Positions 3,079-41,820 of a stretch of DNA of 64,000 bases are shown one piece after another; within the stretch, counting starts at the first letter, position 1, and every line of letters starts with the position of its first letter. The stretch comes from Metellina segmentata (lineage: Eukaryota; Arthropoda; Arachnida; Araneae; Tetragnathidae). Under the pieces are notes generated by a model. The model saw only the letters and a list, made by a program, of their open reading frames with translations, made no database searches and had not been told where the DNA came from. Both the position numbers and the translations under genes were made by a program. The DNA lies in contig CANAIC010000159.1 in NCBI GenBank assembly GCA_947359465.1, positions 1 to 64,000 of the forward strand, given 5' to 3'.

Positions 3079-3163
<85 letters not shown>

Positions 3164-17244: not shown

Positions 17245-17280
<36 letters not shown>

Positions 17281-17601: not shown

Positions 17602-18010
<409 letters not shown>

Positions 18011-18030
18011 TCTATCTATATATATTCATG

Positions 18031-18290: not shown

Positions 18291-18362
18291 TGGTAAATAC
18301 CTTTATTTCGGACGTCGTTCCATTTACTGTATTTTGGCTTCTTCCAATTTATCGAATTCAGG

Positions 18363-18731: not shown

Positions 18732-18862
18732 CTTTTATCAAACGACTTTAAAGTAGTTGGTGAATACCTTTATATATTCATCCTATGTTACTCCAATGAG
18801 GGACATGAGTTCTCGCGGGGATCGTGGTTTACCACCATACGCTTGCGGACAACCATTCATGG

Positions 18863-23124: not shown

Positions 23125-23409
23125 CCATTTCATTAAACATCTTTGAAGAAATGGGTCAAACAGAGTGTGAAAGCCAACAAGGCACAGATGATAAATGACA
23201 GTTTGCAGTATGGAATTGAAACTATTTTCTATAAAAGCGTTTGTGACACAAAGTCTTGATCATAACCTTTGCTAAAGCTTCGCAGGACTCAGTCTGAAGT
23301 AAGTTGAATTTACCTGTTTTTTTTTAAAATTCTGTAACTGTTTCTTAAAGTATTAATGGTTCATTGTGGTTTAAACTCTGCATCGCATTCCAGTTTCACT
23401 TTTTCTAAA

Positions 23410-25914
23410 GCGTTATGCTTCATTGCCAAATCAAAGGAGCGGCATATTTAAACGCTCTTTCTCGGGGTAAAATAATTGTTATGAGTGTGTACAATACCCA
23501 AGATAAGATTACCTTGCTGCATTTTGAAGTTATAGTGTATTAGTATGGTTATGGAAGCTCTTTTTCTTCTCCGTATATGTATGCGCGAGTTACCTTATTG
23601 AAGCATCGTTGCTTGTCCGACATTTGAACTATTCAATCTGTTATTTCTTGATTTAGAAGTTCTGCATTTTTTTTTCTTTTTCAAGGATAGGAATTTTGTT
23701 TCTGTTTGGCATTTATGTGTTTCGGAATCTTTGGTTGAATAGTGTGTAGATGTTGCCCTGTCAACTGACCGCGGTTCAAAATTATGTGGTGATCCACCGG
23801 TACAAAGATTGTTCATCGGTTTCAAATTATGATTGACTTGACGTTTATTTTCCGATTAAGCATATAGCCTCTGGATCGAAAGGTTCTAGGTTCGAATCCC
23901 TGATCAAGGCGCGTTATGCTTCATTGCCAAATCAAAGGAGCGGCATATTTAAACGCTCTTTCTCGGGGTAAAATAATTGTTATGAGTGTGTACAATACCC
24001 AAGATAAGATTACCTTGCTGCATTTTGAAGTTATAGTGTATTAGTATGGTTATGGAAGCTCTTTTTCTTCTCCGTATATGTATGCGCGAGTTACCTTATT
24101 GAAGCATCGTTGCTTGTCCGACATTTGAACTATTCAATCTGTTATTTCTTGATTTAGAAGTTCTGCATTTTTTTTTCTTTTTCAAGGATAGGAATTTTGT
24201 TTCTGTTTGGCATTTATGTGTTTCGGAATCTTTGGTTGAATAGTGTGTAGATGTTGCCCTGTCAACTGACCGCGGTTCAAAATTATGTGGTGATCCACCG
24301 GTACAAAGATTGTTCATCGGTTTCAAATTATGATTGACTTGACGTTTATTTTCCGATTAAGCATATAGCCTCTGGATCGAAAGGTTCTAGGTTCGAATCC
24401 CTGATCAAGGCGCGTTATGCTTCATTGCCAAATCAAAGGAGCGGCATATTTAAACGCTCTTTCTCGGGGTAAAATAATTGTTATGAGTGTGTACAATACC
24501 CAAGATAAGATTACCTTGCTGCATTTTGAAGTTATAGTGTATTAGTATGGTTATGGAAGCTCTTTTTCTTCTCCGTATATGTATGCGCGAGTTACCTTAT
24601 TGAAGCATCGTTGCTTGTCCGACATTTGAACTATTCAATCTGTTATTTCTTGATTTAGAAGTTCTGCATTTTTTTTTCTTTTTCAAGGATAGGAATTTTG
24701 TTTCTGTTTGGCATTTATGTGTTTCGGAATCTTTGGTTGAATAGTGTGTAGATGTTGCCCTGTCAACTGACCGCGGTTCAAAATTATGTGGTGATCCACC
24801 GGTACAAAGATTGTTCATCGGTTTCAAATTATGATTGACTTGACGTTTATTTTCCGATTAAGCATATAGCCTCTGGATCGAAAGGTTCTAGGTTCGAATC
24901 CCTGATCAAGGCGCGTTATGCTTCATTGCCAAATCAAAGGAGCGGCATATTTAAACGCTCTTTCTCGGGGTAAAATAATTGTTATGAGTGTGTACAATAC
25001 CCAAGATAAGATTACCTTGCTGCATTTTGAAGTTATAGTGTATTAGTATGGTTATGGAAGCTCTTTTTCTTCTCCGTATATGTATGCGCGAGTTACCTTA
25101 TTGAAGCATCGTTGCTTGTCCGACATTTGAACTATTCAATCTGTTATTTCTTGATTTAGAAGTTCTGCATTTTTTTTTTCTTTTTCAAGGATAGGAATTT
25201 TGTTTCTGTTTGGCATTTATGTGTTTCGGAATCTTTGGTTGAATAGTGTGTAGATGTTGCCCTGTCAACTGACCGCGGTTCAAAATTATGTGGTGATCCA
25301 CCGGTACAAAGATTGTTCATCGGTTTCAAATTATGATTGACTTGACGTTTATTTTCCGATTAAGCATATAGCCTCTGGATCGAAAGGTTCTAGGTTCGAA
25401 TCCCTGATCAAGGCGCGTTATGCTTCATTGCCAAATCAAAGGAGCGGCATATTTAAACGCTCTTTCTCGGGGTAAAATAATTGTTATGAGTGTGTACAAT
25501 ACCCAAGATAAGATTACCTTGCTGCATTTTGAAGTTATAGTGTATTAGTATGGTTATGGAAGCTCTTTTTCTTCTCCGTATATGTATGCGCGAGTTACCT
25601 TATTGAAGCATCGTTGCTTGTCCGACATTTGAACTATTCAATCTGTTATTTCTTGATTTAGAAGTTCTGCATTTTTTTTTCTTTTTCAAGGATAGGAATT
25701 TTGTTTCTGTTTGGCATTTATGTGTTTCGGAATCTTTGGTTGAATAGTGTGTAGATGTTGCCCTGTCAACTGACCGCGGTTCAAAATTATGTGGTGATCC
25801 ACCGGTACAAAGATTGTTCATCGGTTTCAAATTATGATTGACTTGACGTTTATTTTCCGATTAAGCATATAGCCTCTGGATCGAAAGGTTCTAGGTTCGA
25901 ATCCCTGATCAAGG
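23410..25914. repeat. Five 501-bp tandem repeats (right arm)
   Basis: Exactly 5 x 501 bp, inverted relative to the left array. The B-box-like GGTTCGAATCC is on plus here (last at 25,894-25,904), preceded by a weak A-box-like TAGCCTCTGG, but no foldable tRNA cloverleaf. Confidence 0.9.
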
Positions 25915-26045
25915 CCATGAATGGTTGTCCGCAAGCGTATGGTGGTAAACCACGATCCCCGCGAGAACTCATGTCCCTCATTGGAGTAACATAGGATGAA
26001 TATATAAAGGTATTCACCAACTACTTTAAAGTCGTTTGATAAAAG

Positions 26046-26414
26046 ATGGAGCACGCAGTTCAAATAGTGGGGAGTCTCCATGCCAACTCTTTTCCCACTA
26101 CCAAATTAGATGCCGAGATTGCATCGGTGAAACTCCACTTAAATGTGCAATCGACCAAAGTGAATATGTTGTGGGAAAATGTTAACCTGGACGATAATTG
26201 TATCCAATTTTTAAAACACTTTGGAGACCAAAAGGGTGACCATGTATGGTTTCTCGATCTGGATAAGTGTAGCATACCAGAGTTGACAGTTTACATGATA
26301 AAAGTAGCGAGTGAAATTTATTTGAACATGATGAATACATTGAAGAAGGTTTCTAATGACTCAGTAAAAAAATCGGATATTCAAGACATGATGGAAGAAC
26401 GACATGAGTCGTAA
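26046..26414 (+). CDS. 122-aa protein, multi-copy family, right copy
   Basis: Unknown function. Starts MEHAVQIVGSLHANSF; a TATATAAAGG box lies about 45 nt upstream. The body is predicted mostly helical with VKLHLNVQS, DNCIQFLKHFGDQ and VWFLDLDKCS, and a Lys/Asp-rich C-terminus. No Cys clusters, signal peptide or membrane segment. It is one of six related loci: decayed copies are at 18,031, 26,495, 43,370, 45,960, 53,277 and 55,797, most retaining the TATA-like leader, so copies spread with their promoters. Confidence 0.72.
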   Translation: MEHAVQIVGSLHANSFPTTKLDAEIASVKLHLNVQSTKVNMLWENVNLDDNCIQFLKHFGDQKGDHVWFLDLDKCSIPELTVYMIKVASEIYLNMMNTLKKVSNDSVKKSDIQDMMEERHES

Positions 26415-26494
26415 CCTGAATTCGATAAATTGGAAGAAGCCAAAATACAGTAAATGGAACGACGTCCGAAATAAAGGTATTTACCAACTACTTT

Positions 26495-26755
26495 AAAATC
26501 GCTTGAAAAAAGGTGGAGCACACGGTTCAAATAGCGGGGAGTCTCTATGCCAATTAGATGCCCAGATTGGATCGGTTAGAGCTCCACTTAAATGTGTAAT
26601 CGACCAAAAGAGTGACCGTTCCTCGATTTGGATAAGTGTACCATCCCAGAGTTGACATGATAAAAGTAGCGAGTGGAATTTATTTGATCGTGATGAATAC
26701 ATTGAAGAAGGTTTCTAGTGTCAGTAAAATAATCCGGCATTCAAGACATGAATAT
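26495..26755 (+). pseudogene. Decayed copy of the 122-aa gene, right arm
   Basis: Mirror of 18,031-18,290; same lesions in both arms, so the decay predates arm formation or was homogenised. Confidence 0.75.
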
Positions 26756-26769
26756 ATATAGATAGATAT

Positions 26770-27125
<356 letters not shown>

Positions 27126-27171
<46 letters not shown>

Positions 27172-28125
27172 CATGGTACTCCCTTTGCAATTCTTCTCTA
27201 GGTGAGGAACGCCTTTTGCACTGGACACAATTTGTTTTTACATTGTCTACATAGGTAATCAAGCTTTTCCCAATGATCGATGCGGGCACTTTTGAAAAAA
27301 ACTCGTCTAATCTCGTTGTTACTTTATTACACTCCGTTTACGACCAGTCGCGTTCCGTATCGATTTTCACCACGAACCAGTTGACTTCATCGATAGCGAC
27401 TCCCTGAATGCTTTCGTATATAATATCCGTATAATATTTTATACTCTCTCTATTTTTTCTATGTAGTTCTTAATAGTACCATGATATATACAATATATAT
27501 ATATATATATGTATATATGTATATATCATGGTACTCTCTTTGCAATTCTTCTCTAGGTGAGGAACGCCTTTTGCACTTTACACAATTTGCTTTTACATTG
27601 TCTACATGGGTAATGGAGCTTTTCCCAATGATCGATGTGGGCACTTTTGAAAAAAAACTCGTCTAATCTCGATGTTACTTTATTACACTCCGTTTACGAC
27701 CAGTCGCGTTCCGTATCGATTTTCACCACGAACCAGTTGACTTCATCGATAGCGACTCCCTGAATGCTTTCGTATATAATATCCGTATAATATTTTATAC
27801 TCTCTCTATTTTTTCTATGTAGTTCTTAATAGTACCATGATATATACAATATATATATATATATATGTGTATATATGTATATATCATGGTACTCTCTTTG
27901 CAATTCTTCTCTAGGTGAGGAACGCCTTTTGCACTTTACACAATTTGCTTTTACATTGTCTACATGGGTAATGGAGCTTTTCCCAATGATCGATGTGGGC
28001 ACTTTTGAAAAAAAACTCGTCTAATCTCGATGTTACTTTATTACACTCCGTTTACGACCAGTCGCGTTCCGTATCGATTTTCACCACGAACCAGTTGACT
28101 TCATCGATAGCGACTCCCTCGTTGC
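27126..28125. pseudogene. Three tandem decayed copies of the 148-aa gene, right arm
   Basis: Mirror of 16,640-17,715. TA tracts are shorter here. 28,126-28,427 carries the CCACCGACA repeats and no gene. Confidence 0.75.
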
Positions 28126-28427
28126 AAGAGGATGACGGGCCACCGACACGACTACCTCATAAACACATGTACAATCCCGCTCGTCTACGGGGACTTTGAT
28201 GGGAGACGAATTAGCGTAGGAAGGCACGCCACCGACATCATAAGTAGTAGTAATAACCTAAGCCATTTATTATAAATTCGTCGAGGACTTTATTGGGGAG
28301 ACGAGAATGAAACGCCACCGACACCTCATAAACAAGACACCAAACCCTTTGTCTTGTAAATAATATGTATTTTCCCAAAATATTTTATAATATTTGTTTT
28401 AATTTCAGGGATATATTGGAATCAGCA

Positions 28428-29117
28428 ATGGAGGAACAGTTATTGCCGATATACACACCAATGAATTTAAAAAAAGGGGCGACAATAGCAGTGGCGACTC
28501 ACGCACAAATGTATTTTGCACTATTTTCATTAGCGTTACCAGTTTCTTTGACTGTCGACGTGATTAAAATGTGGTTTGCAGTTAAAGTACGTAAATGGGT
28601 AAACTTGTTAAATTACAACGCGACACCAGTATGCACTGACGATCGCATCGCGTTGGGTTACGACGAACCTTTCGACGATGTGTTTAACAGTGAAATACAA
28701 ACGGAACGGTCGGAAATATTAAGGGATTGGAATTGGGAAGACTTACGACCGCTTCCGCGCGATTTATACTCCCATTACATGACTAAAATGGAAAGTTTCC
28801 GAAGGAACGGTCATATAATATGGAGATATAGTAAGTGGACACATTTGGAAACACGTGAAGTTTTACATTTATGTATTCATTGTAACAATACAATGGTAAA
28901 TGACACGACGTGGGGAGCGACATTTGCAATATTAGATGTCCTATCACATTTAGAATGCGGATTCGGACATCGAATATTTTGGGAAACGACACGTGAACGA
29001 AACTGGTGCGACAATTGCGTCAGAACGCCCCTGTTCACAATATACGAGTCTGATCGATGCAGACGGGCATATGCCTTCCATCACTCGAGGGTGCAAATCA
29101 TCGATGACTCTGATTGA
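28428..29117 (+). CDS. 229-aa protein of unknown function, right copy
   Basis: Starts at MEEQLLPIY; 20 nt upstream is TTTTAATTTCAG, a plausible 3' splice site, so a 5'-untranslated intron is possible. A hydrophobic stretch (MYFALFSLALPVSLTVDVI, ~30-50) could be a membrane segment. The C-terminal half has LHLCIHCNN, ECGFGH and WCDNC, a possible zinc site, and ends acidic (IIDDSD). AATAAAGG follows the stop by about 8 nt. Not recognised as a known family. Confidence 0.75.
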   Translation: MEEQLLPIYTPMNLKKGATIAVATHAQMYFALFSLALPVSLTVDVIKMWFAVKVRKWVNLLNYNATPVCTDDRIALGYDEPFDDVFNSEIQTERSEILRDWNWEDLRPLPRDLYSHYMTKMESFRRNGHIIWRYSKWTHLETREVLHLCIHCNNTMVNDTTWGATFAILDVLSHLECGFGHRIFWETTRERNWCDNCVRTPLFTIYESDRCRRAYAFHHSRVQIIDDSD

Positions 29118-29352
29118 AAACACACAATAAAGGTTAGTATAACGTAAACCGATAAATTATTATATATATATATATATATATATTTTTGGTGCACCTTAAA
29201 TCTGTCATGGCCGAAAATCCTCATCACGTTGGGTGGGCTCACATAGCTAACATATTCTCATGACCCATTCTTGAAATATGAAATATGATATATATATATA
29301 TGTGTGTGTGTGTGCTCAAAATTTTCATATTCTCCTCTCTAGGATTTCGAGA
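29118..29352. other. TA/TG microsatellites and splice-site-rich leader of the spliced gene
   Basis: Contains a 28-bp TA tract, a TA-TG tract and TTCTCCTCTCTAG, which matches a polypyrimidine tract plus 3' splice site directly before the first coding exon of the SR-like gene. An untranslated first exon is therefore likely upstream. No other gene seen. Confidence 0.5.
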
Positions 29353-31004
29353 ATGTCTTCTTCAGAAACTTCAATCTCTTCAAACGGTATACTATCAATA
29401 AATACATTATTTCATTTTGGTTTCTTTTACAGCAGCTTTTGGCCTAAAACAGGTAAGTCTTTTCCAGATTCCTTAATACATATTCATTTTTTTTTTTTTA
29501 ACAAGGTAAGTATATTTGCTTTCGTTTTTTTTTGCAGTGGTTTTTTGGGCCCAAAACAGGTAAACTTTTTTTTATAAGATTGTATAGTTTCAGAAGTAAT
29601 TCTAAATTTATTTTTTTATCAAGAATCCAACCACTCACACCAGCGTACCCCGTCGCCGCTCCGGCATCAAGACTCCCGCATCTCATCACCCCGGCGTACC
29701 TCGTCGCCTGCCAGGATTATCTCTCCACCCCGGCATCAAGACTCCCGCATCTCATCACCCCGGCGTACCTCGTCGCCTGCCAGGATTATCTCTCCACCCC
29801 GGCATCAAGACTCCCGCATCTCATCACACCGGCGTACCTCGTCGCCGCTCCGACATCAAGACTCCCGCATCTCATCACCCCGGCGTACCTCGTCGCCTGC
29901 CAGGATTATCTCTCCACCCCGGCATCAAGACTCCCGCATCTCATCACACCGGCGTACCTCGTCGCCGCTCCGACATCAAGACTCCCGCATCTCATCACCC
30001 CGGCGTACCTCGTCGCCTGCCAGGATTATCTCGCCACCCCGGGTTACGAGCATCGCAAGAATTCCGGACAGGCCTAGGATGCCGGATAGAATTTCACCAG
30101 GACCAAGTTATCAATCAAGGTGGCTACCCCACTTCAGAAGATCCAAATCCAGATCCGACCGTCGATGTAGATCGTCAGTCAAATCTCAGCGTCAACATCA
30201 TCAAAGACAATTAGGTAATTATGTAAATTATTTACAATAATGTAAATTATTTACAATAGTGTATAAATTACCTTTAAAAAAATGACCTTGAAAATCACTC
30301 CTTGATGGAGTATAATTCACCTTTCAGAATCCAATTCCTTTTTAGACTCTTTCAGATTCTCACATTCAGTTGCAACTCCGCCGCCGACTTTATTTAAAAA
30401 TTCTATTGATAACTTTCAGAAACCTTATTTAGACTCTTTGAGATTCTCACATTGAGTTGCAACTCCGCCGCCGACTTTATTTAAAAATTCTATTGATAAC
30501 TTTCAGAAACCTTATTTAGACTCTTTCAGATTCTCACATTCAGTTGCAACTCCGCCGCCGACTTTATTTAAAAATTCTATTGATAACTTTCAGAAACCTT
30601 ATTTAGACTCTTTCAGATTCTCACATTCAGTTGCTACTCCGCCGCCGACTTTATTTAAAAATTCTATTGATAACTTTCAGAAACCTTATTTAGACTCTTT
30701 CAGATTCTCACATTCAGTTGCAACTCCGCCGCCGACTTTATTTGAAAATTCTATTGATAACTTTCAGAAACCTTATTTAGACTCTTTCAGATTCTCACAT
30801 TCAGTTGCAACTCCGCCGCCGACTTTATTTGAAAATTCTATTGATAACTTTCAGAAACCTTATTTAGACTCTTTCAGATTCTCACATTCAGTTGCAACTC
30901 CGCCGCCGACTTTATTTGAAAATTCTATTGATAACTTTCAGAATCCTTATTTAGACTTACATTTCTTTCAGATTCACATTCCACTGCAACTCCGCCGACT
31001 CTAA
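29353..31004 (+). CDS. Spliced Arg/Ser-rich (SR-like) protein gene, right copy
   Basis: Predicted exons: 29,353-29,386; 29,433-29,452; 29,538-29,559; 29,624-30,214; 30,328-31,004. Boundaries follow clear signals (TTTTACAG, AACAG|GTAAGT, TTTTTTTGCAG, AACAG|GTAAAC, CACCTTTCAG), and the frame stays open across every junction. Exon 4 encodes tandem repeats of SPRRTSSPARIISPP and RHQDSRISS (23- and 16-codon units), then RRSKSRSDRRCRSS, an SR-type tail. Exons 2 and 3 (20 and 22 nt) are duplicates of one another. The last exon holds seven 29-codon repeats, but unit 2 has a TGA at 30,453-30,455 in both arms, so the protein may end there, leaving the rest as 3' UTR. AATAAA lies near 31,098. Likely nuclear; role in RNA or chromatin binding is inferred from composition. 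Confidence 0.6.
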
Positions 31005-31146
31005 CCCGCCAACGGATAAAGGCTGGCTTAAGACTCTGCATGAGGGATGTATTTTCCTACATCGACCTGGTCCCCAATTTTAAGTAATGATATAATGTCA
31101 ATAAAAATATATTAATCTCATGTATGTGTGGTTTATTCGATTTGTA

Positions 31147-31266
31147 TTAAATTAGAATAAGGGTGTGAAGCCAAATAAACAGACAGTGATAATTGTTTGG
31201 ACAAAAAAATTAGAGTACATAGAGAGTTCCAATAGAGATTTTCTAATGGTTTCCAAGATAAATTAA
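31147..31266. other. Empty transposon site: single copy of the 120-bp TTAA-bounded segment
   Basis: The segment that flanks the transposon twice in the left arm is present once here, with TTAA at 31,147-31,150 and 31,263-31,266. This is the reference state before insertion. Confidence 0.9.
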
Positions 31267-31315
31267 GTGTAAATAAAACACGCACAAGGTTGGTACCTAA
31301 TGAAAATTAAAAAAA

Positions 31316-31360
31316 AAGAACTCCCACAAAAAACCGAAACGGTTTTTTGTGGGAGTTCTT
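31316..31360 (-). terminator. Perfect hairpin, right arm
   Basis: Mirror of 10,488-10,532, preserved base for base in the stem. Confidence 0.6.
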
Positions 31361-31529
31361 ATATTTATTTCATTTACAACGTTACATAGTAGTGCATGAC
31401 ACACAATATGAAAAACAATCGATACATAATAATGAAAAACAGTCGATACATAATAATGAAAACTTCAGTAGATATATGAAAAAAAAAAAAAAAAAAACAC
31501 TTGGATATACATGAAACATAATGTGAGTA

Positions 31530-31646
31530 TTATATCACCCAGAATCCACTCGGTCCCAAAGTTTCTTTAAATTCAGGGCAGGTATCGCATCGTCGTCTCC
31601 ACATAGCTAGACAGTCGTAGTGAAAACTGGGGTCCTTTTGCATCAT
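31530..31646 (-). pseudogene. RING-finger remnant, right arm
   Basis: Mirror of 10,201-10,317, same lesions. Confidence 0.6.
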
Positions 31647-32122
31647 CTCCGAACAAATCGAGCAGTGTGTTGGTATCGAGTGTAGTGTAAATAGTTCACT
31701 TCATTTATCCATTCTAACATAACGGACCCCAAACGAGTCCATTGATCGACTGAAATGGAAAAATATTCTCCCGACGATAACGAATGCTTCCACGCTGATT
31801 CAGCCAGTTCGTAAAACATCGGGATCATTGTGTCCCGCCAAAAGCATTTTAAATTGCCGTTCTTCCAAGCCCGTGGTGTAGATAGGAAGTCTTTAGTAAG
31901 GGGATGGGTTTCCCAGCTGAAGATTGGGTGAAAATTCAGATCGACGTTTGGAAACGTCTCCGTTAGAGTCTTGTAGACGACCCAGAAGTTGTCGATGCCA
32001 ATTCTAACTTCCTCGGGAGGTTGGGCCGCATGCAATCCTATGCTCGCATCCGTCATAAAACGAGCCCATTTGGAATTCAATTCCTCGATCTTACGATCCC
32101 TGTATGAGTCGACTGGGATCAT
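31643..32122 (-). CDS. 159-aa protein of unknown function, right arm
   Basis: Identical in protein to 9,725-10,204; TATATAAAG box preserved on the minus strand near 32,160. Confidence 0.75.
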   Translation of the reverse strand: MIPVDSYRDRKIEELNSKWARFMTDASIGLHAAQPPEEVRIGIDNFWVVYKTLTETFPNVDLNFHPIFSWETHPLTKDFLSTPRAWKNGNLKCFWRDTMIPMFYELAESAWKHSLSSGEYFSISVDQWTRLGSVMLEWINEVNYLHYTRYQHTARFVRR

Positions 32123-32212
32123 GGTGTGTCTGTGTGTCAAGTTATGCCGACTCGTCTTTATATAGGTGGAGAGAACATCCGGAAACTTCCCGTTGTGCCT
32201 TGATTTGGCAAT

Positions 32213-32371
32213 TCAATTTCTCAAGGGTCCTTTGCATACAGGGCACGTATCACCTCGACGATGTTTCCACCTAGTCAGGCAATCGTAGTGGAAACAATGA
32301 TTGCATTTGAATCTTGGGAATATATACATCCAGTCGAAACAAAGCTGGCACTGCACTGGGCGCTTGGGCAT
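32213..32371 (-). CDS. Minimal 52-aa RING-H2 protein, right arm
   Basis: Mirror of 9,476-9,634, all eight zinc ligands conserved. The 540-bp stretch to 32,912 repeats the palindrome described at 9,101 (here about 32,707-32,746) and contains no further gene. Confidence 0.8.
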   Translation of the reverse strand: MPKRPVQCQLCFDWMYIFPRFKCNHCFHYDCLTRWKHRRGDTCPVCKGPLRN

Positions 32372-32912
32372 GATGACTTGCGAAAGTCGGAGATTGGACT
32401 GGACTGGACAATCACTTAGGGAGCTCCCGCGGCGGCACGCCGCTTATCTCCACATCGAAAAGAATCGAAAGACAGGTAGTTTCTTCAGGAGGGGGTATCA
32501 AAGGAAGGTAGAAGGAGCTGGATCCAAGAAAGACAGCTGCTGCAACCCATGCGGTTCGGAGTCCTGCGTCTGAATGACACGAGGAGCTCCGAGTTCCGAT
32601 GTTTTACGAGAGTAGGGAAGGGGGAGTGGCTTCTAGTCATGTGACTTTCATCAGCCAGGGAAAATAAAGAAGGCGGTACATGCAGCTAACCGCGCTGAGA
32701 GGTTTCCCATTGGTCGATGATGGTCAGCTGACCATCACTCCCAATGGAGAGAAATAAGCAAGGATAACCCGAAAGGGTTATGTAGGAAGATTAAAGACAG
32801 AATTTATCTGTGATCTAATTAAGGGTCCAATCAAGTCCATAACCCAATCTCTCTCCATTGAACCTAACGTTGGTCACTACCCAATTTTTTTTACACACAA
32901 CGACATTTTTCC

Positions 32913-33362
32913 TCAATTGATGGCTCCATAGATTTTTAACAGGCCGCAAAAAAATTCCAAAGAGTCATGATCATCCCATATAAAGTCCCAAAGGAAATTT
33001 ACCATTTCGTCGAGGTTCATCAGTTCCTCGCCGTCATCGTCCATGGAGTGGAAAAGGAGGCAGTCGTCAAATTCCTTTCGAATTTTTTCAAATATCCACG
33101 CCGTGACTTCGTTCCGGTAATTAATTTTTCGCATTACCGTTAGCATAACGCGATGCCACTTGAAATGTATGTCGACTATTTTCAAATAATCGACGTCCAG
33201 TTGGCTTATCTCGCCGCGGCATAACGGACAGATCGACTGGCCAGAGACGACCCATTTTGCTATGCAATGAGAATGGAATTTGTGGCCGCATGAAACGATC
33301 ATAGTATCCATGAAAAAGAAGGGGTCAGGCAATGCAAATTGGCATATACAGCACGTACACAT
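32913..33362 (-). CDS. RING-H2 protein (149 aa), right arm
   Basis: Mirror of 8,485-8,934 with identical protein. Confidence 0.85.
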   Translation of the reverse strand: MCTCCICQFALPDPFFFMDTMIVSCGHKFHSHCIAKWVVSGQSICPLCRGEISQLDVDYLKIVDIHFKWHRVMLTVMRKINYRNEVTAWIFEKIRKEFDDCLLFHSMDDDGEELMNLDEMVNFLWDFIWDDHDSLEFFCGLLKIYGAIN

Positions 33363-33421
33363 CCTCTGAATTTTTTAGCGCAAGTCCCCCCGTTTCGGGT
33401 TACAACTCTATATAGGGATGA

Positions 33422-33759
33422 TATATGCTTCCTGTTGTCGGAAACGCTGATCCGTTATCAGTCGCGTCTAGACATCCGGATCTCTTCCGAAAACGATTCC
33501 TACATCATCGATTTTTTTTTTTTTTTTTTTATGGATCTCGATCCAACCTCGGAGAGAAAAAATTATACCTCAATCTATATGTTTCCTGTTTTCCGTTGAT
33601 TCGTTATCAGTCGCGTCCAGACATCCGGATCTTTTTGTTTTTTGTTTTTTTTGTTGTTGTTGTTGCCCGAAACGAGTTTTTTTTTTTATGAAGTGAGTTT
33701 TGCATCCCGATCCAACCTCGGAGAGAAAATATTATATCACTTTTCTCGTCTGGATATAT
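33422..33759. repeat. Direct repeats upstream of the 149-aa RING gene, right arm
   Basis: Mirror of 8,088-8,425. No gene in 33,363-34,059; homopolymer lengths differ slightly from the left arm. Confidence 0.65.
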
Positions 33760-34059
33760 GCTTCCTTAACTCTAAATTTCAGTAAAGTTTAGTTTCGCTG
33801 TTTGGGGCACAGTTCCAATGATTCTTTTTTTTTTTTTTTTTTTTGTAAGGGGATCCTTCATCCCCCCACACAGATCCTTAATAATCTTGGCCCCAATTCT
33901 ATAAACACCAAGAAATCTCCCGGAACCAGGAAAATCTTGAAGCGGTGGTGCAACTTTAATACAGAACCACACGAGTCAAACCAATGTTGGTGTAAAATAA
34001 TAATAAAAAGAAACTCGACGAAAAGGTTTTCGTGGAGTTTCTTCTTCATTTTATTGATA

Positions 34060-34695
34060 TTAATAATTATTTACATCATCTTTTGGATATTCCTCCTCGA
34101 AGGCGTGAGCCCATAAACGTCCGAGACACGGGAACCATTCACACCTCGATCCGCAATCGTGGCGCTGAAGGAACATTCGCACGAGCAACGACGTGAATTT
34201 TCGGTTGATCGGGCGACGGGGCCATAGAAATTCGACCACGCGGTCGACCGGCCAACACGGATCACTCGGATTGATATATTGGTCGTTGCAGTGTGGACGT
34301 GCTGTAACGAGGATCCAGTCGAACACTTCTCGGGGATACATGTGATGGTGTCGCAGGACGCTGTTCCGCACCTGCGTCCAGCACTCCACGAGCCAGGCAT
34401 TTTTCAGCTGAACCTCGTAGTCGTCGTTGAGCTCTATCTGACAGGTCGGACAGCGGAGCCCGGTGGCGTTCTTAGCTGCCATTTCCACCGCTTCGGTAGC
34501 AACCGATGCGACTGCCATTTCTCGGATCACAAGAAGATCGTCCTTACTGATTTCCTTTTCGCAGAATTTGCAGAACGGTTCTTTTTGGATGTTGGCATAC
34601 TCGTCCAGGCATTTTAGGTGCAGAATACTTTCGCAGCAGTCCATTCGATAAAACGGGGACATCGCTTTTTGACGGCATAATGCGCACTTGGGCAT
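34060..34695 (-). CDS. RING-like protein (211 aa), right arm
   Basis: Mirror of 7,153-7,788 with identical protein; the AATAAA and hairpin after the stop are also present (about 34,008-34,055). Confidence 0.82.
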   Translation of the reverse strand: MPKCALCRQKAMSPFYRMDCCESILHLKCLDEYANIQKEPFCKFCEKEISKDDLLVIREMAVASVATEAVEMAAKNATGLRCPTCQIELNDDYEVQLKNAWLVECWTQVRNSVLRHHHMYPREVFDWILVTARPHCNDQYINPSDPCWPVDRVVEFLWPRRPINRKFTSLLVRMFLQRHDCGSRCEWFPCLGRLWAHAFEEEYPKDDVNNY

Positions 34696-34810
34696 GATGA
34701 CTCTGTGTAAGGAACGACTCGTCAAAGACACGTTTGAAACAATAGACGCGAGGGTATTTATTTAATTTTCTTTACGTTAAAAAACAAACAAAAAACAAAA
34801 AAAAAACGCG

Positions 34811-34829
34811 CATCCTGTCTGACAGGATG
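34811..34829. promoter_or_regulatory. 19-bp palindrome between divergent RING genes, right arm
   Basis: Same CATCCTGTC / GACAGGATG palindrome as 7,019-7,037, with T instead of A at the centre when read on plus. Confidence 0.65.
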
Positions 34830-34889
34830 AGGAGGAAAAGAATATAAAAGCGGATATAACCACTCCTCGTTCTGACTTCCTCTCTCGCA

Positions 34890-35396
34890 ATGTCTACATG
34901 TGCCATTTGCCTCGAGGACGGAGGCGATTCGATCGCTTGCAAGCATCGGTTTCACGAAACGTGCCTCGCCTATTGGGTGGACGACGATAGGAAAACGTGT
35001 CCGTTGTGCCGAGCTGCGATCGGCGAGGAGGTGATCGCCGCTTTACGAGAAAAGAGACGATGTGAAAAATGGACAACGGTCGCGAATAGCTTATTATTAA
35101 TCGGACGCTACGAGTTTTCGCATCATCTCCTCCGAGCCATTCATCGCGAAATACGTCGTAATTTGAAAACGTACGACGGATACAACAGAGAACGCAGGTG
35201 GAGTGTGGACAGAGCCGCTTATTTTTTGTGGAAAGAGACTAAAGTATTTAAAAATCTGTTTTGGAGATTGTTCGAGGCGACCCATAGGTGTTCGTACCAG
35301 TGCCGGGATAAACCCTGCCTTGTTCGAGAGAAGATGAGGAGGGGAAGATGGCAGCGGTGGTGTAGAAGGCAAGTGAGAAATGAATACATTTTGTGA
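34890..35396 (+). CDS. RING-H2 protein (168 aa), right arm
   Basis: Mirror of 6,452-6,958; all RING ligands kept. An 18-T tract follows the stop by about 6 nt, so its transcript would end in a U run. Confidence 0.85.
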   Translation: MSTCAICLEDGGDSIACKHRFHETCLAYWVDDDRKTCPLCRAAIGEEVIAALREKRRCEKWTTVANSLLLIGRYEFSHHLLRAIHREIRRNLKTYDGYNRERRWSVDRAAYFLWKETKVFKNLFWRLFEATHRCSYQCRDKPCLVREKMRRGRWQRWCRRQVRNEYIL

Positions 35397-35512
35397 AACG
35401 TTTTTTTTTTTTTTTTTTAAAGACAAACTCAAATTAATCCAAGGTCTGACTGAGGTGTGATTTCCAAGGGATATATCCTGTAGTGGTCGATATATAAAAA
35501 CGCCCATTTTTC

Positions 35513-35662
35513 TTCCAAGGATATCCTGTTGGAAACGCCTTATCTGCCGGGCCAAGGTCTGAAACGAAGGATATCCTGTTGGAAACGCCTTATCTGCCGG
35601 GCCAAGGTCTGAAACGAAGGATATCCTGTTGTATAAATAGAAACGTCCTTATCTGCAACGCC
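35513..35662 (+). promoter_or_regulatory. 50-bp promoter repeats of the 176-aa gene, right arm
   Basis: Three AGGATATCCT palindromes and three CTTATCTGC sites in the same spacing as 6,186-6,335; the TATAAAT box is near 35,632. Confidence 0.7.
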
Positions 35663-35697
35663 AGATGATTTCATTCCAAGACTCTCTGCATTTCGCG

Positions 35698-36228
35698 ATG
35701 TCAGAAAGAAAAAGGACGTTGTTGACGGACGAGGAGGTTTGGGAACAAGTGAAATTTGTCTTCAATCCAATCTCGCCTATACCGTGTTCACCGACGCTTC
35801 CTGCTTTTAAATTAATCAAGACCTATACGGAGGTCCCCGATCCAGACGACCCGAGTTGGAATTTACTCGGAACCTTCGTCTGGTCGTCGGGGGATCCTCG
35901 TCCTGCTGCCGTCAATATATCTTCGTCTGCTGTGTTTGAACTTTCTTCTCCAATCGAAGATAATGCTGTGTTTCTCAATCCTCCAATCGAAAATATTTTG
36001 TCTCCTGATGATGCTCCAATCGAAGATATGTCCACCGCCGTCTTTGAACTTTCTTCTCCGGTCGAAAATGCTACAATCAAAGATATATCGTTTAAAACCG
36101 CCAATGGTCCGGTCGAAGATGCTCCAATTCAATATATTTTAATTGGAATAGACTTTTCAAAAAAGCCCATCGTTCCTCCGAACCTTTCAGAATTGGATCC
36201 AAGGAGAATATTTGTGACAAAAAATTAA
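35698..36228 (+). CDS. 176-aa acidic repeat protein, right arm
   Basis: Mirror of 5,620-6,150 with identical protein. Confidence 0.7.
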   Translation: MSERKRTLLTDEEVWEQVKFVFNPISPIPCSPTLPAFKLIKTYTEVPDPDDPSWNLLGTFVWSSGDPRPAAVNISSSAVFELSSPIEDNAVFLNPPIENILSPDDAPIEDMSTAVFELSSPVENATIKDISFKTANGPVEDAPIQYILIGIDFSKKPIVPPNLSELDPRRIFVTKN

Positions 36229-36361
36229 TTATGGAAAAAAAAACCACCCGTACTTGCATTAACATCTGCTTTATACGACGGAGATTTTGCCTTATCAAAC
36301 TTCCAAAAAAAAATTTTTTTTCTCTATATTCATATATATATATTGATCCAAGCTCTGCGAG

Positions 36362-37537
36362 ATGTTCTTCGGCTCAGAGATGACCGACGAGATGCCAGAC
36401 CAAGACATTTGGGACCTGATCGATCAAGCGATGGACGCTTCCCCGACACACTACCCATCGAACTCGGGTACCCGTAGTCCTACTACTCTATCCGAGAGAT
36501 GTTACTCTCCGATTTCTCCTCCTCCAAATGATGATGAACCCGTCCTTTTTACTATCGACAAGAACCCAGTAGAAAGGTTTCCCCAACGACACGAATGGGG
36601 TCGACGGAATCCTCCTCTCACTACCCCAGCTCCCAGTCAAGTTGCTGCGGCTAATGATGACAAACGAATTTCTATGGATTTAAGTCCTCGTGATCAAAGA
36701 CCACCCGTAAAACCTCCAGCTGTTGATCGAGAGCCTACCAGTGATGAGAAACCCGTAATGCCTGTAGAAAAAAAACGAGACGCGTCGTTGAAGAAAACCG
36801 TAACGAAGCCGCCATCACCTGCTGAAGCAGAACGAAACGCGTCGTCGACCCCTGATGACGAAGAACAACAACAAGAAGAACGAGACGCTCCGATGGCGTG
36901 GAGAAAGAGGGCTGCCACCACCGATTGTCGTCCTCCACCACAACACGTCGTCGACAAAAGGGATCGTTCGCGGTTCCCCTATTCGGATAGGACGTGGAAC
37001 AACGAACCTTTCGTCTATAATAGACCGAGGTATCCTCCACCTTATTATGCGGATTGGAGAAGAAGGAAGAACTATTACTCCGACGAACGGAGAAGAAGGC
37101 CCGATCATCATCGAAGAGATGTTTCGAGGTACGACCAGCAGGCGGAAAACGACGATCGGAAAAGAACCCGGCAAGTGTTCGAACACGGTCTCGAAGTGGC
37201 ACTGATCCTATGCATTCAAGGAGAATCGTACACGGTCTCCAACGGATTTAAAAGCGTGTCCGAGGACTGTTGCCCAGACTGGCGACAGCAGCTCGTCGAC
37301 GATTTGCAAGAGTTTGGTATGGGAGGACTCTACCTCGTCGGTGCAGAGACGCAAAGTGCGTGGAAGGAGTTTCGAAAAGATTTCCCGCAGCTCGCGGACG
37401 TCAAAGTACACCCATTGGACGATCGACTCCTCGGAAAGTGTACGTACTGCAAAGAAACCGAGTGCCACCGATGGAAGGTGGTGGTAGGGGGTGTTCAAAA
37501 GGTGACCCGTAGGACGATGACTACCATACCCCACTAG
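36362..37537 (+). CDS. 391-aa protein with 148-family C-terminal domain, right arm
   Basis: Mirror of 4,311-5,486. Between its stop and the ribozyme (37,538-37,767) a partial repeat of the C-terminal coding region (GTACTCCTCGGAAAGTGTA) is followed by a second CCCCACTAGAA, a small duplication in the 3' UTR. Confidence 0.8.
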   Translation: MFFGSEMTDEMPDQDIWDLIDQAMDASPTHYPSNSGTRSPTTLSERCYSPISPPPNDDEPVLFTIDKNPVERFPQRHEWGRRNPPLTTPAPSQVAAANDDKRISMDLSPRDQRPPVKPPAVDREPTSDEKPVMPVEKKRDASLKKTVTKPPSPAEAERNASSTPDDEEQQQEERDAPMAWRKRAATTDCRPPPQHVVDKRDRSRFPYSDRTWNNEPFVYNRPRYPPPYYADWRRRKNYYSDERRRRPDHHRRDVSRYDQQAENDDRKRTRQVFEHGLEVALILCIQGESYTVSNGFKSVSEDCCPDWRQQLVDDLQEFGMGGLYLVGAETQSAWKEFRKDFPQLADVKVHPLDDRLLGKCTYCKETECHRWKVVVGGVQKVTRRTMTTIPH

Positions 37538-37767
37538 AAGAAGGTCCGACAGCAGAATCGTCGACGATACGTTACTGCAAAGTGCGTCAAACAAAGTACT
37601 CCTCGGAAAGTGTATACGCACAAAAAAAAAAAAAAAACTATGAGTGCCAACCGATATTAGGTGACTGTACCCCACTAGAATCATGTAAAAATATTGTATA
37701 ATAATGTAAAACAATGCATGTAGTAATAATATATGTGCCTTTAAAAAAAAATAAATAAAAAAAAAAA

Positions 37768-37826
37768 AAAACCATCGTGGGAGTAATAGCCCACCTGATG
37801 AGACCTATAGGGGTCGAAATGGTTTT
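37768..37826 (+). ncRNA. Type III hammerhead ribozyme (right copy A)
   Basis: All invariant parts are present. Stem III: AAAACCAT (37,768-37,775) pairs with ATGGTTTT (37,819-37,826). C17 is 37,776. Stem I: GTGGG (37,777-37,781) with CCCAC (37,790-37,794), 8-nt loop. Core CTGATGA at 37,795-37,801. Stem II: GACC (37,802-37,805) with GGTC (37,812-37,815), 6-nt loop. Core GAA at 37,816-37,818, followed by the A15.1-U16.1 pair. Predicted cleavage is between 37,776 and 37,777. A templated run of 15 A (37,757-37,771), preceded by AATAAATA, enters stem III, so the 5' product would end in A15 plus CCAUC. The TATA box of the BRO-like gene starts about 33 nt downstream. Activity is untested. Confidence 0.93.
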
Positions 37827-37925
37827 GAAAGAAAAAAAAATAATTGCTGCGACTTTGGGTATATATATAAAAGTCGCGCTTCCAAACCACTTCACAATTT
37901 CATCGTCTCTCATTTGCTGTAAAGG

Positions 37926-38636
37926 ATGTGGTTCCGCGTTCGACTCAACGACACGACAGTTCTTTCGGCCTGCGTCGGGATCATCGACGGTGAAATATAC
38001 TGGAAACTCTCCGACGTGAATGCGCTTCTCGGTTATCGAAGCACTTCCACCGACTGTTACAAGACCCATCCCCGTCGCCACGTTTCGGACGTCGCACCCT
38101 CTTGCTTTCGAGGATCCATGTCGACTCGAATCCTAACACCCAACGAAATGCTGGACCTGATCGAAAAGTCTCGTAAAGGGGGAGTCCCTCTTCGACAAGT
38201 CGTCAGTAATCTCTTGTCTTTAGGCGTCGTGAAAAACGAACCTTTTATATTTTCTACGAGTCATCGCTACTCTACCATTCTTCAAATGGTCTCAAAAGGA
38301 AGCGAACCGGATTCGTGCCGCTTGAGCGAGTGGATGGTAGGGTTTACTGGATTCGTTTTAGCGAAGGCTCGCGAAATTGTTTCGAAACATAAGTTCCTCA
38401 CCGAATTTTCCGAGAGCACGCGTGATGCGTTATTTGGAGATCGAGAGGAGGCTACCTGTGATGATGACCTGCAAGAACCTGCTGCTGCTAATGTTCGTGA
38501 ACCCGTTGAAAGGAGTGAGAAGAACGTTGGAAAACCAATGGTATTGGTGTTCGAAGGAATCGAATACCCTCCGAACGTAGTGGATATCATTTGTAATCAC
38601 AACGTGAGGTATCGCTACCTCAAAGAGGAAGTATGA
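37926..38636 (+). CDS. BRO-N-domain-like protein, right arm
   Basis: Mirror of 3,209-3,919, identical in protein. Confidence 0.6.
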   Translation: MWFRVRLNDTTVLSACVGIIDGEIYWKLSDVNALLGYRSTSTDCYKTHPRRHVSDVAPSCFRGSMSTRILTPNEMLDLIEKSRKGGVPLRQVVSNLLSLGVVKNEPFIFSTSHRYSTILQMVSKGSEPDSCRLSEWMVGFTGFVLAKAREIVSKHKFLTEFSESTRDALFGDREEATCDDDLQEPAAANVREPVERSEKNVGKPMVLVFEGIEYPPNVVDIICNHNVRYRYLKEEV

Positions 38637-38649
38637 ACAAAAATATAAA

Positions 38650-38678
38650 AAAAAATATATATATATATATAATCCTCG

Positions 38679-38739
<61 letters not shown>

Positions 38740-38742
38740 CGT
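38650..38742. repeat. Shorter TA/GA microsatellite upstream of the 305-aa gene, right arm
   Basis: Same layout as 3,078-3,198 but about 28 bp shorter over the TA and GA tracts combined. Confidence 0.8.
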
Positions 38743-38761
38743 CCCCACACTTAAGACGGCC

Positions 38762-39679
38762 ATGGATTGCTTTCCTTCGACCGTTCGCGATACCGTGCAA
38801 CCTCTCCTCGTTCCATCTTCCAAGTCTGCCTTCGAGAAACTCGCCGGGCGAGTGTCGTGTTGGGTAACGAGCTTGGATCCCGATGATGAGAACCGAATCT
38901 CCTGGAAAAGTAAATTCCTCGACGGGCTGCAGAATTTTCTCTACCTGGCCATGGGAGCTAAAAAGTTTATACCGTTTCGACCAGGTCGGGTCGAGTGGGA
39001 AAGAATTTATCGTCGCCTGGCCAGATCGTCGTCGCAAAGAAATAAACGCAAAACCGACGTGAGGACGATCTACTCGATTGACCACGAAACGTTCGTGGTC
39101 GGCGCCTATTTCACGTTCGGGCAACGACGAGTCCAACGAGGGACCTTTCACGTGTACGAGACCTCGGACGCCCCGATGCTCTTTTACCGCCTGCCCAACG
39201 CTTCCGTGGGATCGAACGCGAATCCCTGGGTCGGGGATCGGATCTTTTGGTGGCAAGACCAACATCTCTACGAAAGGTTCGTATTGCAACCCCACACCGC
39301 CTACAAAGTCGACGAGGACACGTTGTACATCGTATTGACCGTGCAACAGACTCTGTATTCAGTTCGAGTGGTGACGGCGACGGCGGATTTTCGATTCCAA
39401 GACCCTACAAGTAGTAAAATATTAATTTACGACCCTTACGAGACCCTTGTTTTGAGTAAGCGGCCGAGAGAAGAAGAGCAGCAGCATTTCGTAACGAAGC
39501 CGCCGACCCAAGAGCAAATCAGAGAACTTTTTGAGCCCATCATGACGTGTTACTATTATCCTCCGAATTGCATCGAGGAGCCTTTAGATTTGAGCGGGAA
39601 ACCCCATGTCCTGTCTGAAGGAGATTCTCAGAAGAAAAGAGCCGGGTTTTCCTGTCTGACAAGGCTAACGGCAAAATAG
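38762..39679 (+). CDS. 305-aa protein with PLDLS motif, right arm
   Basis: Differs from the left copy by at least Lys for Asn near residue 68 and Tyr for Phe in the TVQQTL(F/Y) segment. PLDLS is conserved. Confidence 0.8.
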   Translation: MDCFPSTVRDTVQPLLVPSSKSAFEKLAGRVSCWVTSLDPDDENRISWKSKFLDGLQNFLYLAMGAKKFIPFRPGRVEWERIYRRLARSSSQRNKRKTDVRTIYSIDHETFVVGAYFTFGQRRVQRGTFHVYETSDAPMLFYRLPNASVGSNANPWVGDRIFWWQDQHLYERFVLQPHTAYKVDEDTLYIVLTVQQTLYSVRVVTATADFRFQDPTSSKILIYDPYETLVLSKRPREEEQQHFVTKPPTQEQIRELFEPIMTCYYYPPNCIEEPLDLSGKPHVLSEGDSQKKRAGFSCLTRLTAK

Positions 39680-39730
39680 AACAGTCCTGTTGTTAAGGTC
39701 TCCTCGGAAGGAAACCCCCGCCCATGTTGC

Positions 39731-39787
39731 CATCCTGTCTAACAACAACAACAACAACAAAAAAACACTGCATCGGACCCTATATAA
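39731..39787 (+). promoter_or_regulatory. Promoter of the 340-aa gene, right arm
   Basis: CATCCTGTC at 39,731-39,739, then a CAA repeat tract, then TATATAA at 39,781; ATG at 39,828. Confidence 0.6.
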
Positions 39788-39827
39788 GCTCGATACCAAC
39801 CAGTTTCGCACACAACAACGACGAAGG

Positions 39828-40850
39828 ATGGATCTGTTTCCCAACACGGTTTCGGAACGGGTAAAGACTCTTTGCTACTCGGGAGACAAGTCGGTCTTGG
39901 AACGTTACGTGACCCAGAAAAAAGTGATCTGTGCAGTCTCGGGATTATACCGGGAGCTCGTGTCGTGGACACGAATCGAGTGGTTTACACGCCAATTGGT
40001 GGACCACTTCGTCTATACAGCGACACGAGCCCAGACGTTGGTCCGAGAGCCGAAAAACTTGAGCTGGGAAAAGGTCCGGGCTCGAATGTCGCTCTCGATG
40101 CGACAGAAATCAAACACGGACGTGAGGACCGTCTACGTCTACGAGAACCTATTCTTTGTGAAAAAGTTTTTCACTTTTGGACAGAGAACCGTAGGAGAGG
40201 GTACTCACCACGTTATTCAATTGTCGCAAGTGCCCGTTCTGTATTACAAGCTAGACTCGGAGGGAGGTCGTGTCGGGGAACGACTGTTTCGGCCCGAGGA
40301 CCAGTTCTGCTATGAAATGAACGTATTGCAACCGAACCATGTGTACCTGGTGGAGCCCGGCACTACTTATATCATTGTTACCATCCAACCGACCGTGTTC
40401 GCCCTGGACGTGGTGACCGCGGCAACGGCCCATGAGTTGAAACGGGAGTGCAGCAGCAGCAACAATCCCATCGAGAGACCGGTCTCCCCTCGACGACAAA
40501 CAATCGTTCAAGAACGAGTCTTCTCCCCTACAATCGTTCAAGAACGTTCCTCGCCGCCTCCACTGCAACGAGTCTTCTCCCCTACAATCGTTCAAGAACG
40601 TTCCGCGCCGCCTCCACTCGAACGAGTCTTCTCCCCTCGACCGGCTCATATACAAAGAGTGGAAAGATTTCCCATAAGTGTGTCTAACGACCACAATTGC
40701 CAGGTGGAACCCTTGGATTTAAGGAAACGCAGCAGCACTGACCACCACCAGCCGATGCAAATGAACCCGGACCCCATTGATTCTGAAGACGTTGCGAATT
40801 TTCAATACTTTTACGAATCCTTTGATATAAAATCAGAAGGCTCGTCCTGA
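39828..40850 (+). CDS. 340-aa protein with PLDLR motif, right arm
   Basis: Same protein as 968-1990; at least one silent change (AGT versus AGC Ser codon just after the VERFPI segment). Confidence 0.8.
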   Translation: MDLFPNTVSERVKTLCYSGDKSVLERYVTQKKVICAVSGLYRELVSWTRIEWFTRQLVDHFVYTATRAQTLVREPKNLSWEKVRARMSLSMRQKSNTDVRTVYVYENLFFVKKFFTFGQRTVGEGTHHVIQLSQVPVLYYKLDSEGGRVGERLFRPEDQFCYEMNVLQPNHVYLVEPGTTYIIVTIQPTVFALDVVTAATAHELKRECSSSNNPIERPVSPRRQTIVQERVFSPTIVQERSSPPPLQRVFSPTIVQERSAPPPLERVFSPRPAHIQRVERFPISVSNDHNCQVEPLDLRKRSSTDHHQPMQMNPDPIDSEDVANFQYFYESFDIKSEGSS

Positions 40851-40979
40851 GCAGAAAGGTCGTTTCCCGTGGACTTTTTGGTGTAATCGAAGCTGTATGT
40901 AAAAAAAATATATATTTGTAAATAAATAATGTATTTGTAAATAATGTATTGGCTTTAATAATAATAAAAAAAAAAAAAA

Positions 40980-41038
40980 AAAACCATCGTGGGAGTAATA
41001 GCCCACCTGATGAGACCTATAGGGGTCGAAATGGTTTT
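40980..41038 (+). ncRNA. Type III hammerhead ribozyme (right copy B)
   Basis: The same 59 nt as copy A, but in different flanking sequence: 18 templated A (40,966-40,983) preceded by AATAATAATAAAA, 130 nt past the stop of the 340-aa gene. Predicted cleavage is between 40,988 and 40,989. Only the ribozyme, a GAAA after it and the A run before it are shared with copy A. Confidence 0.93.
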
Positions 41039-41820
41039 GAAATTAAAGATTTAAAGGAAGTTGGTCGCGCGTCGAAATATTATACATGTAATTTACTTTT
41101 CCAACCACAACACCATTACTACTGTCCACACAATAAAGCATTACTACTATCACACATTAAAAAAAAAAAGGGCGGGGCACGACACAATTACTACTACGTA
41201 CATCCAAACGAGTTCAAATCAAAATTGAAGTTTTTCAGCATAATGTCTTCTTTTCACGATAAAGCATTACTACTTATTTGAAAAAAAAGGTCGAGTTCAA
41301 ATCATGTTTTCTTTTTACCACAAGACATTTCAGCCCCAATCAGTGACAAAGCAACAACTTTCGACCTATTTTCATGTCGAGATGAATAATCTTTTGACTC
41401 AAGCTTGCAGAAGTAATCGTTGGAAGAAATGCCATTATCTCCCTGCATTGTGCTTTGACAATCATATCTCGCCCAGGTCAGCTAATATATTAATACCGCT
41501 TGAGAGTAAATAATAAGTAAACATTGTGGTCATTTTTTTACTTCAGTCATGAATTTAAATGTCCAGTTTCACAAAACACTATAAGGAAATTTGATTCAAT
41601 TGGTTTTGCTCTTCATGTGCTTCTTGACAATTGCTCACCCCCCCCCCCCTTCTCGATACTATTATACACGCATTGCTCTTCGTGGGCAATGCTAGTTCTC
41701 TTTCGCGACTCCAACATTGAAAAACAAAAAAACAAAAAAAATAATCGGTCCAAAATATCGATTCGGTAAAAAAATCGAAAGGGTACCGGTGCTTATATAT
41801 TTTTTGGACCGACTGTGTTC
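41039..41820. other. Right palindrome edge with small ORFs
   Basis: Mirror of 1-781: 69-codon (41,304-41,513) and ~81-codon (41,524-41,769) open frames, four CATTACTAC-type motifs between 41,112 and 41,272. No recognised product. Confidence 0.4.

Follow-up and report, generated by a model that had tools for sequence, protein, structure and literature searches.

Type III hammerhead motifs behind protein genes of a naldavirus-like element in the spider Metellina segmentata: candidate ribozymes for mRNA 3' ends

Introduction

What are type III hammerhead sequences doing directly behind the protein genes of a virus-like element in a spider, and could they set the 3' ends of its messages? According to PMC7761336 and PMC7229834, the hammerhead ribozymes of animals are mostly of type I and those of plants of type III, phages have all types, and some HDV-like circular RNAs of toads and termites carry type III variants. 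Insects, too, have elements with type III hammerheads (PMC7761336, citing earlier work), so that the topology by itself is no novelty in arthropods.

The window, the whole stretch of DNA analyzed, comprises 64,000 nt (bases 1–64000) of contig C167 (629,758 bases), in a genome of 1.67 Gb and 173 contigs. We see an even chance that each of the two sites described below is a genuine type III hammerhead in the 3' UTR of a gene that belongs to an endogenous naldavirus-like element, where it would set the 3' end of the mRNA.

Two hammerhead sites mirrored by a palindrome

Four identical 59-nt sequences, reported in a sequence-only reading of the window, were confirmed by sequence comparison, coordinates and strands included (Table 1). 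All four sequences are present, but they constitute only two sites, each doubled by a 41.8-kb palindrome. In their long matches, the palindrome arms are 99.5–99.6% identical, and the left arm carries an insertion. A descriptor scan for hammerheads of all three topologies, which required at least 11 stem pairs, confirmed the type III topology and the complete core in all four copies and found no further hammerhead in the window.

The 59-mer has the layout AAAACCAU-C17-GUGGG-loop-CCCAC-CUGAUGA-stem II-GAA-AUGGUUUU, with the cut at AUC^G and with the loops AGUAAUAG and UAUAGG (or AUAG). The core elements CUGANGA ... GAA, the A15.1-U16.1 pair, and an H at position 17 are all present, and each window copy contains 5 + 5 + 8 = 18 stem pairs in the descriptor scan. 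Stem II has the 4 bp originally noted, or 5 bp once its closing U-G pair is counted. For the isolated 59-mer, the minimum-energy fold is the hammerhead, with three stems formed and stem III open (−18.7 kcal/mol, z −2.29); equal stability is reached by four of 200 shuffles. The covariance-model search proposed with the sequence-only reading came out mixed: a local scan of 99 bases yields a match to RF00008 (Hammerhead_3) at 38.1 bits (E 1.9e-7), below the gathering score of 48.5, which is a threshold set by curators and not a feature of the structure, and RF00008 is absent from Rfam scans of the whole window, both at the gathering score and at E ≤ 10.

Table 1. Coordinates of the hammerhead sites, neighboring genes, and element landmarks (window positions unless a locus is named)
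Feature	Position	Strand	Remark
Type III hammerhead site 1, right arm	37768..37826	+	predicted cut after 37776
Type III hammerhead site 2, right arm	40980..41038	+	predicted cut after 40988
Site 1 mirror copy, left arm	4019..4077	-	predicted cut between 4069 and 4068
Site 2 mirror copy, left arm	782..840	-	predicted cut between 832 and 831
A-run into site 1, 15 A	37757..37771	+	last 4 A within stem III
A-run into site 2, 18 A	40966..40983	+	last 4 A within stem III
391-aa ORF upstream of site 1	36362..37537	+	no Pfam match at E ≤ 1
236-aa ORF downstream of site 1	37926..38636	+	
305-aa ORF between both sites	38762..39679	+	
386-aa ORF upstream of site 2	39690..40850	+	TTG start; no Pfam match at E ≤ 1
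Palindrome doubling both sites	7..41816		41.8 kb
External terminus of element	6..41	+	TA, then CAGTCGGTCC...
Internal terminus copy, palindrome/unique-region boundary	41782..41817	-	CACAGTCGGTCC
Lineage-B 27-bp hairpin, just past stop of 386-aa counterpart	L056:1482-1539	-	same in L057

Position behind coding regions

The placement of the motifs 3' of coding regions, also part of the earlier description, is borne out at both sites. Site 1 is located 230 nt past the stop codon of the 391-aa ORF and site 2 is located 129 nt past that of the 386-aa ORF (340 aa if counted from the ATG at 39828), in each case on the sense strand of the gene. A TATA-like stretch, recognized by eye at 37860–37872, is positioned between the site 1 ribozyme and the 236-aa ORF. 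The 391-aa and 386-aa ORFs display no significant similarity to each other, yet both carry one module composed of an A-run and a hammerhead, and the 3' regions of the two sites are 82–84% identical over ~150 nt, ribozyme included. This likeness behind dissimilar ORFs indicates that the module was probably copied between gene ends. In the protein database, the 340 aa of the 386-aa ORF counted from its ATG have no relative at E ≤ 0.001. The 305-aa and 386-aa proteins and their lineage-B counterparts (L056) look alike by eye and share a C-terminal PLDL(S) stretch, which we take to resemble the CtBP-binding motif of other viral proteins.

An A-run of 8–19 A leads into the ribozyme at all 24 distinct places read in the genome; in the C9 copy, a G and an A separate the run from CC. 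The 60 nt upstream of the ribozyme are 47–80% A at these 24 places, compared with a window mean of 30%. AATAAA is found at 37750, 26 nt before the site 1 cut, and at 40921 and 40963, 67 and 25 nt before the site 2 cut. Such a hexamer is expected by chance in stretches this rich in A; its occurrence near both cuts means that the ribozyme and ordinary polyadenylation may compete.

An endogenous naldavirus-like element

The sequence-only reading placed the motifs in a large DNA virus-like genome. Virus-like genes do surround the sites, but they belong to an endogenous element with transposon-like ends in a spider-like genome and not to a free viral genome. Copies of the element are also present in contigs of 79–132 Mb. 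The helicase ORF at 61256–62497 has named close relatives in the spiders Araneus, Trichonephila, Nephila, and Parasteatoda, and the named relatives of a PIF2-like protein of C167 come from Caerostris, Trichonephila, Oedothorax, and Nephila; no relatives of the helicase, the PIF2-like protein, or the 391-aa ORF were found in IMG/VR. On pieces of C167, PIF2 is recognized by PF04631 (E 2e-11; 43.8 bits, cut-off 25) and domain 6 of the RNA polymerase subunit Rpb2 is recognized with an E of 5.9e-14, a domain that we presume to be as in LEF-8. LEF-8, 38K, and others are naldavirus core genes. The C167 pieces also encode a primase-helicase and an IAP, and the genes of the window include a further IAP as well as a RING protein and a phosphatase, which weakly matches the viral phosphatase model TIGR01684 (E 0.0024; 17.2 bits, cut-off 134). 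By this gene content (PIF2, the Rpb2 domain, and the IAPs), drawn from ~60% of the element, the element appears naldavirus-like. Literature searches on viral elements of spiders and on naldaviruses yielded nothing pertinent.

The element is bounded by a 36-nt end, for which 91 places within three mismatches are listed genome-wide, mostly as two variants: GGTCC marks lineage A, which includes the window, and GGTTC marks lineage B. The outer ends on C8, C9, C11, C13, C82, and C107 and both outer ends on C167 have different flanks, with TA adjoining in eight of eight, and the flank of the C5 outer end likewise ends in TA. The inner terminus copy, in contrast, is preceded by ACA in five of five distinct places. 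The termini on C167, at 6, 41817, 161502, and 203951, indicate that the element spans ~204 kb, and a lineage-B element on C24 spans ~172 kb. The C167 spacing was also considered as a repeat unit of ~162 kb, which was rejected: the flanks are the mirrored ends of one element. Giant naldavirus-like elements with ends of the form TA followed by CAGTCGG were seen on C167, C24, C163, C72, C92, C15, C85, C7, and C11.

With terminal repeats that are both external and internal, and with no fewer than two lineages in the same genome, the element has the appearance of a Teratorn-like virus-transposon fusion, and it is possibly as interesting as the ribozyme. Teratorn is a fish herpesvirus fused to a piggyBac transposon, with terminal repeats, external and internal, that surround long inverted repeats (PMC6431247); PMC10871703 describes the endogenous nimaviruses of crustaceans as giant transposable elements. 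As far as these descriptions go, the spider element shares the giant virus-transposon plan with both and the arrangement of repeats with Teratorn, and differs from them in its naldavirus-like genes, its TA ends, and another terminal repeat. The word "ribozyme" does not occur in PMC10871703, and the accessible text of PMC6431247 mentions hammerheads for Terminons and not for Teratorn. No transposase that fits the termini was found; with the ORFs of the unique region sampled, the sole transposase-like ORF encountered is Mutator-like and lies inside the left-arm insertion.

Copies of the ribozyme across the genome

The 25-nt core is present at no fewer than 31 places in the genome within three mismatches. 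Among the matches listed, 27 are exact, four (at C11:17.73–17.757 Mb) have two mismatches, and none lies outside those 31 places. Flanks were read at 24 of the 31; the other seven lie on C82, C107, and C167. A genome search with RF00008, in which 68 of 211,924 first-look candidates were scored, gave no match, and the diverged C11:17.7 copy scores 31.5 bits with this model. The C9 copy still folds as a hammerhead in surroundings that are 67–84% identical to the window. The C3 copy is found outside any recognized element (~13 kb around it read).

In seven aligned places, the catalytic core is intact without exception and C17 varies only to A, an allowed base. Compared with the window, C11:30.8 has no differences, C13 site 2 has one, C13 site 1 has two, C9 has two (both giving G-U pairs), C3 has three (C17 to A, one G-U pair, and one end pair lost), and C11:17.7 has four. 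The three changes in stems I and II (C3, C9, and C11:17.7) all retain a G-U pair; two-sided compensatory changes are absent from the seven aligned places. A C-to-A change that breaks a pair of stem III is common to both C13 sites and C11:17.7, and in these three of the seven rows the energy-based fold is no longer a hammerhead. They stand for six of the 24 places read, namely both C13 sites and C11:17.7 Mb four times, the other three places there being identical to the aligned one in ribozyme sequence, and the change is predicted to impair the ribozyme in those six.

Strong conservation of the ribozyme was expected from the C9 copy with its ~75% identical surroundings, but the test on aligned columns near the site was weak. 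In five comparisons, 2, 4, 0, 1, and 2 differences are observed in the 59 nt, against expectations of 5.3, 6.7, 2.7, 1.3, and 1.3 derived from the aligned columns of the flanks (P 0.089, 0.19, 0.061, 0.62, and 0.87; none significant). The observed number is below the flank expectation in four of these five comparisons, which are not independent, since the C9 and C11:17.7 copies are related. Given the weakness of the flank test, selection is not claimed.

At C11:17732423–17757228 (L039–L042), four near-identical copies of the gene end, ribozyme included, are spaced 6.7–9 kb apart in the same orientation, an array that, judged from its layout, is a local tandem amplification.

The comparable gene end in lineage B

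The lineage-B element on C24 has counterparts of the 386-, 305-, and 236-aa ORFs in unchanged order and sense, and the piece read of the 391-aa counterpart is inverted, so that only site 2 is comparable. The hammerhead is absent from this gene end in both lineage-B copies read. Instead, the 386-aa counterpart on C24 is followed by a 27-bp perfect hairpin, the 3' strand of which runs into eight T's; with its extension, the hairpin has a folding energy of −61.7 kcal/mol. The C163 copy is identical to C24 across the 330 nt compared. The ribozyme was thus either gained in lineage A or lost in lineage B.

A proposed role at mRNA 3' ends

The motif, its position, the A-run, and the occurrence of the motif in many copies of the element are given in the DNA. 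From these we infer that the sites may be transcribed, that the RNA may cleave, and that the cut may be used as an mRNA 3' end. Upon transcription through a site, the RNA would adopt the hammerhead fold and self-cleave after C17 (...A-run-CCAUC^GUGGG...). The upstream mRNA would thereby obtain a fixed 3' end, A(n)CCAUC, which would carry a 2',3'-cyclic phosphate and directly follow the genome-encoded A-run, and read-through RNA directed toward the next gene would be cut off. Counted for a working ribozyme are the full core, the three stems, and the hammerhead fold of the 59-mer; the RF00008 match, which extends to the diverged C11:17.7 copy; and the location of both sites after a gene on its sense strand, site 1 also preceding the TATA-like stretch. 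Counted against it are the absence in lineage B, the broken stem III in six of 24 places, the weak folding in longer context, and the score below the cut-off.

One alternative, possible although on balance unlikely, is that the hammerhead cleaves whenever it is transcribed but is a passenger, which has spread between 3' UTRs, and once outside a recognized element, and is kept by copying and gene conversion rather than by use. The likeness of the ~150-nt regions behind dissimilar ORFs, the stem III change shared by both C13 sites as if copied, the isolated C3 copy, the ribozyme-free gene end of lineage B, and the weak selection tests are all consistent with such a passenger. Both window sites nonetheless occupy the same functional position, downstream of a stop codon on the sense strand, and the core has stayed intact in all seven aligned places.

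A relic, that is, a hammerhead-shaped sequence that does not cleave in the cell, is an improbable explanation, to which folding in longer transcripts lends some weight. In the longer 3' UTR of site 1, stem III has a probability of 0.37 instead of 0.84, that of stem I also drops, to 0.43, and the centroid differs from the hammerhead; in that of site 2, the probability of stem III falls from 0.84 to 0.24 and the minimum-energy fold differs from the hammerhead. The broken stem III at a quarter of the places read and the sub-threshold Rfam score point the same way, but the window copies have all invariant bases and the isolated 59-mer folds well.

It is very improbable that the two cuts serve to free a 3.2-kb RNA with three ORFs, the ends of which a host RNA ligase could join. 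The sites of an arm do have the same orientation, 3212 nt apart, and retrozymes make circular RNAs with their hammerheads (PMC7229834, PMC4918200). The spacing is far longer than the retrozyme units of ~150–800 nt given in the same texts, however, and the TATA-like stretch after site 1 suggests that the downstream genes have their own start. In addition, the C9, C11:17.7, and C11:30.8 copies are only single sites among the matches listed, in regions partly truncated or unread. A chance resemblance has a negligible probability and was rejected, as the 25-nt core has four matches in the window versus a mean of 0 over 100 shuffles, 20 Markov-simulated windows yield three weaker matches altogether (11, 13, and 13 pairs, versus 18), and the motif recurs in diverged copies.

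A bolder version of the 3'-end reading, which we consider rather unlikely, is that a nuclear DNA virus lineage makes its mRNA 3' ends without the polyadenylation machinery, through an encoded tail of 8–19 A and a hammerhead cut 5 nt beyond it (...A(n)CCAUC^). The ground for this proposal is that the A-run exceeds the 4 A that stem III needs; a plain alternative is slippage of a run that was copied along with the module. Reporter mRNAs that are terminated by a ribozyme and have a templated A tail exist, and the spider arrangement would be their natural version, with the sister lineage having a 27-bp hairpin at the same gene end instead.

If the sites cleave in cells, a lineage of animal DNA-virus-like elements would end protein-coding messages with a hammerhead, in a form described chiefly for plants and for infectious circular RNAs, and the hammerhead with an encoded A-run would become testable as an mRNA 3'-end device. 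The repeated copies in one genome, together with a sister lineage that lacks the ribozyme at that gene end, offer a ready comparison.

Comparison with known systems

The window sites have the same core, three stems, open stem III, and cleavage after AUC as the type III hammerheads of RF00008, which are found in viroid-like RNAs and plant retrozymes. Unlike those, they were not seen in an LTR or a short dimer but stand singly behind the protein genes of a DNA-virus-like element, and an A-run is fused to their stem III. With the type III hammerheads of insects they share the topology in arthropod DNA, a likeness known from description alone. The sites therefore appear to represent a known ribozyme in a new setting. 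A plant LTR retrozyme, in which two hammerheads bound ~600–800 nt, was considered and rejected, as the sites are 3212 nt apart with protein ORFs between them. An animal retrozyme or Penelope-like element, with type I hammerheads in short tandem repeats, was likewise rejected, as the window sites are of type III only. Hammerheads in animal mobile DNA are common to these retrozymes, to Penelope-like elements/Terminons, and to the window, but the window sites differ in topology and are not covered by a tandem array of a few hundred bp; no array with a score of 200 or more covers them.

Amniote mRNAs carry hammerheads, as in the Clec2 3' UTR, which are likewise tied to mRNA processing but belong to host genes and have another sequence. 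An invertebrate iridescent virus has an HDV-like ribozyme, also a self-cleaving RNA in a large DNA virus of arthropods but of a different ribozyme class. A role of hammerheads in mRNA biogenesis is mentioned in PMC7229834, and PMC7761336 contains neither "DNA virus" nor "large DNA". A literature search that covered few subscription papers and no preprints found no paper connecting hammerheads with viruses of this kind.

A search of IMG/VR yielded no exact match to the core. Among IMG/VR loci with the stem I pattern, 12 of 13 were scanned and gave one hammerhead match above the family threshold, of type II. The IMG/VR contigs L043 (10415–11252), L045, L049, and L050 contain three to five hammerhead-like motifs close together, of type III in L043, L045, and L050 and of type II in L049. 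These contigs, presumed to be phage, resemble the spider element in having several hammerhead motifs per DNA-virus contig; the sequence likeness to the window that was seen is limited to the motif, and stem I (GTGGG/CCCAC) is common to them because it was the search pattern.

Other features of the element

The insertion present in the left arm only occupies approximately 10701–13495 of the window, contains the Mutator-like transposase ORF at 11193–12896 (PF20700), and has short inverted ends that include GGTATACGTATAC. Tandem repeats of 501 bp flank the center of the palindrome, with seven copies at 18862–22367 and five at 23410–25915. A 21-bp perfect hairpin, flanked on one side by a T-run, is present in both arms (10488–10532 and 31316–31360). 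In the unique part, a direct repeat of ~1.4 kb, 98% identical, is located at 53940–55363 and 62003–63419, and each copy holds an ORF of ~210 aa.
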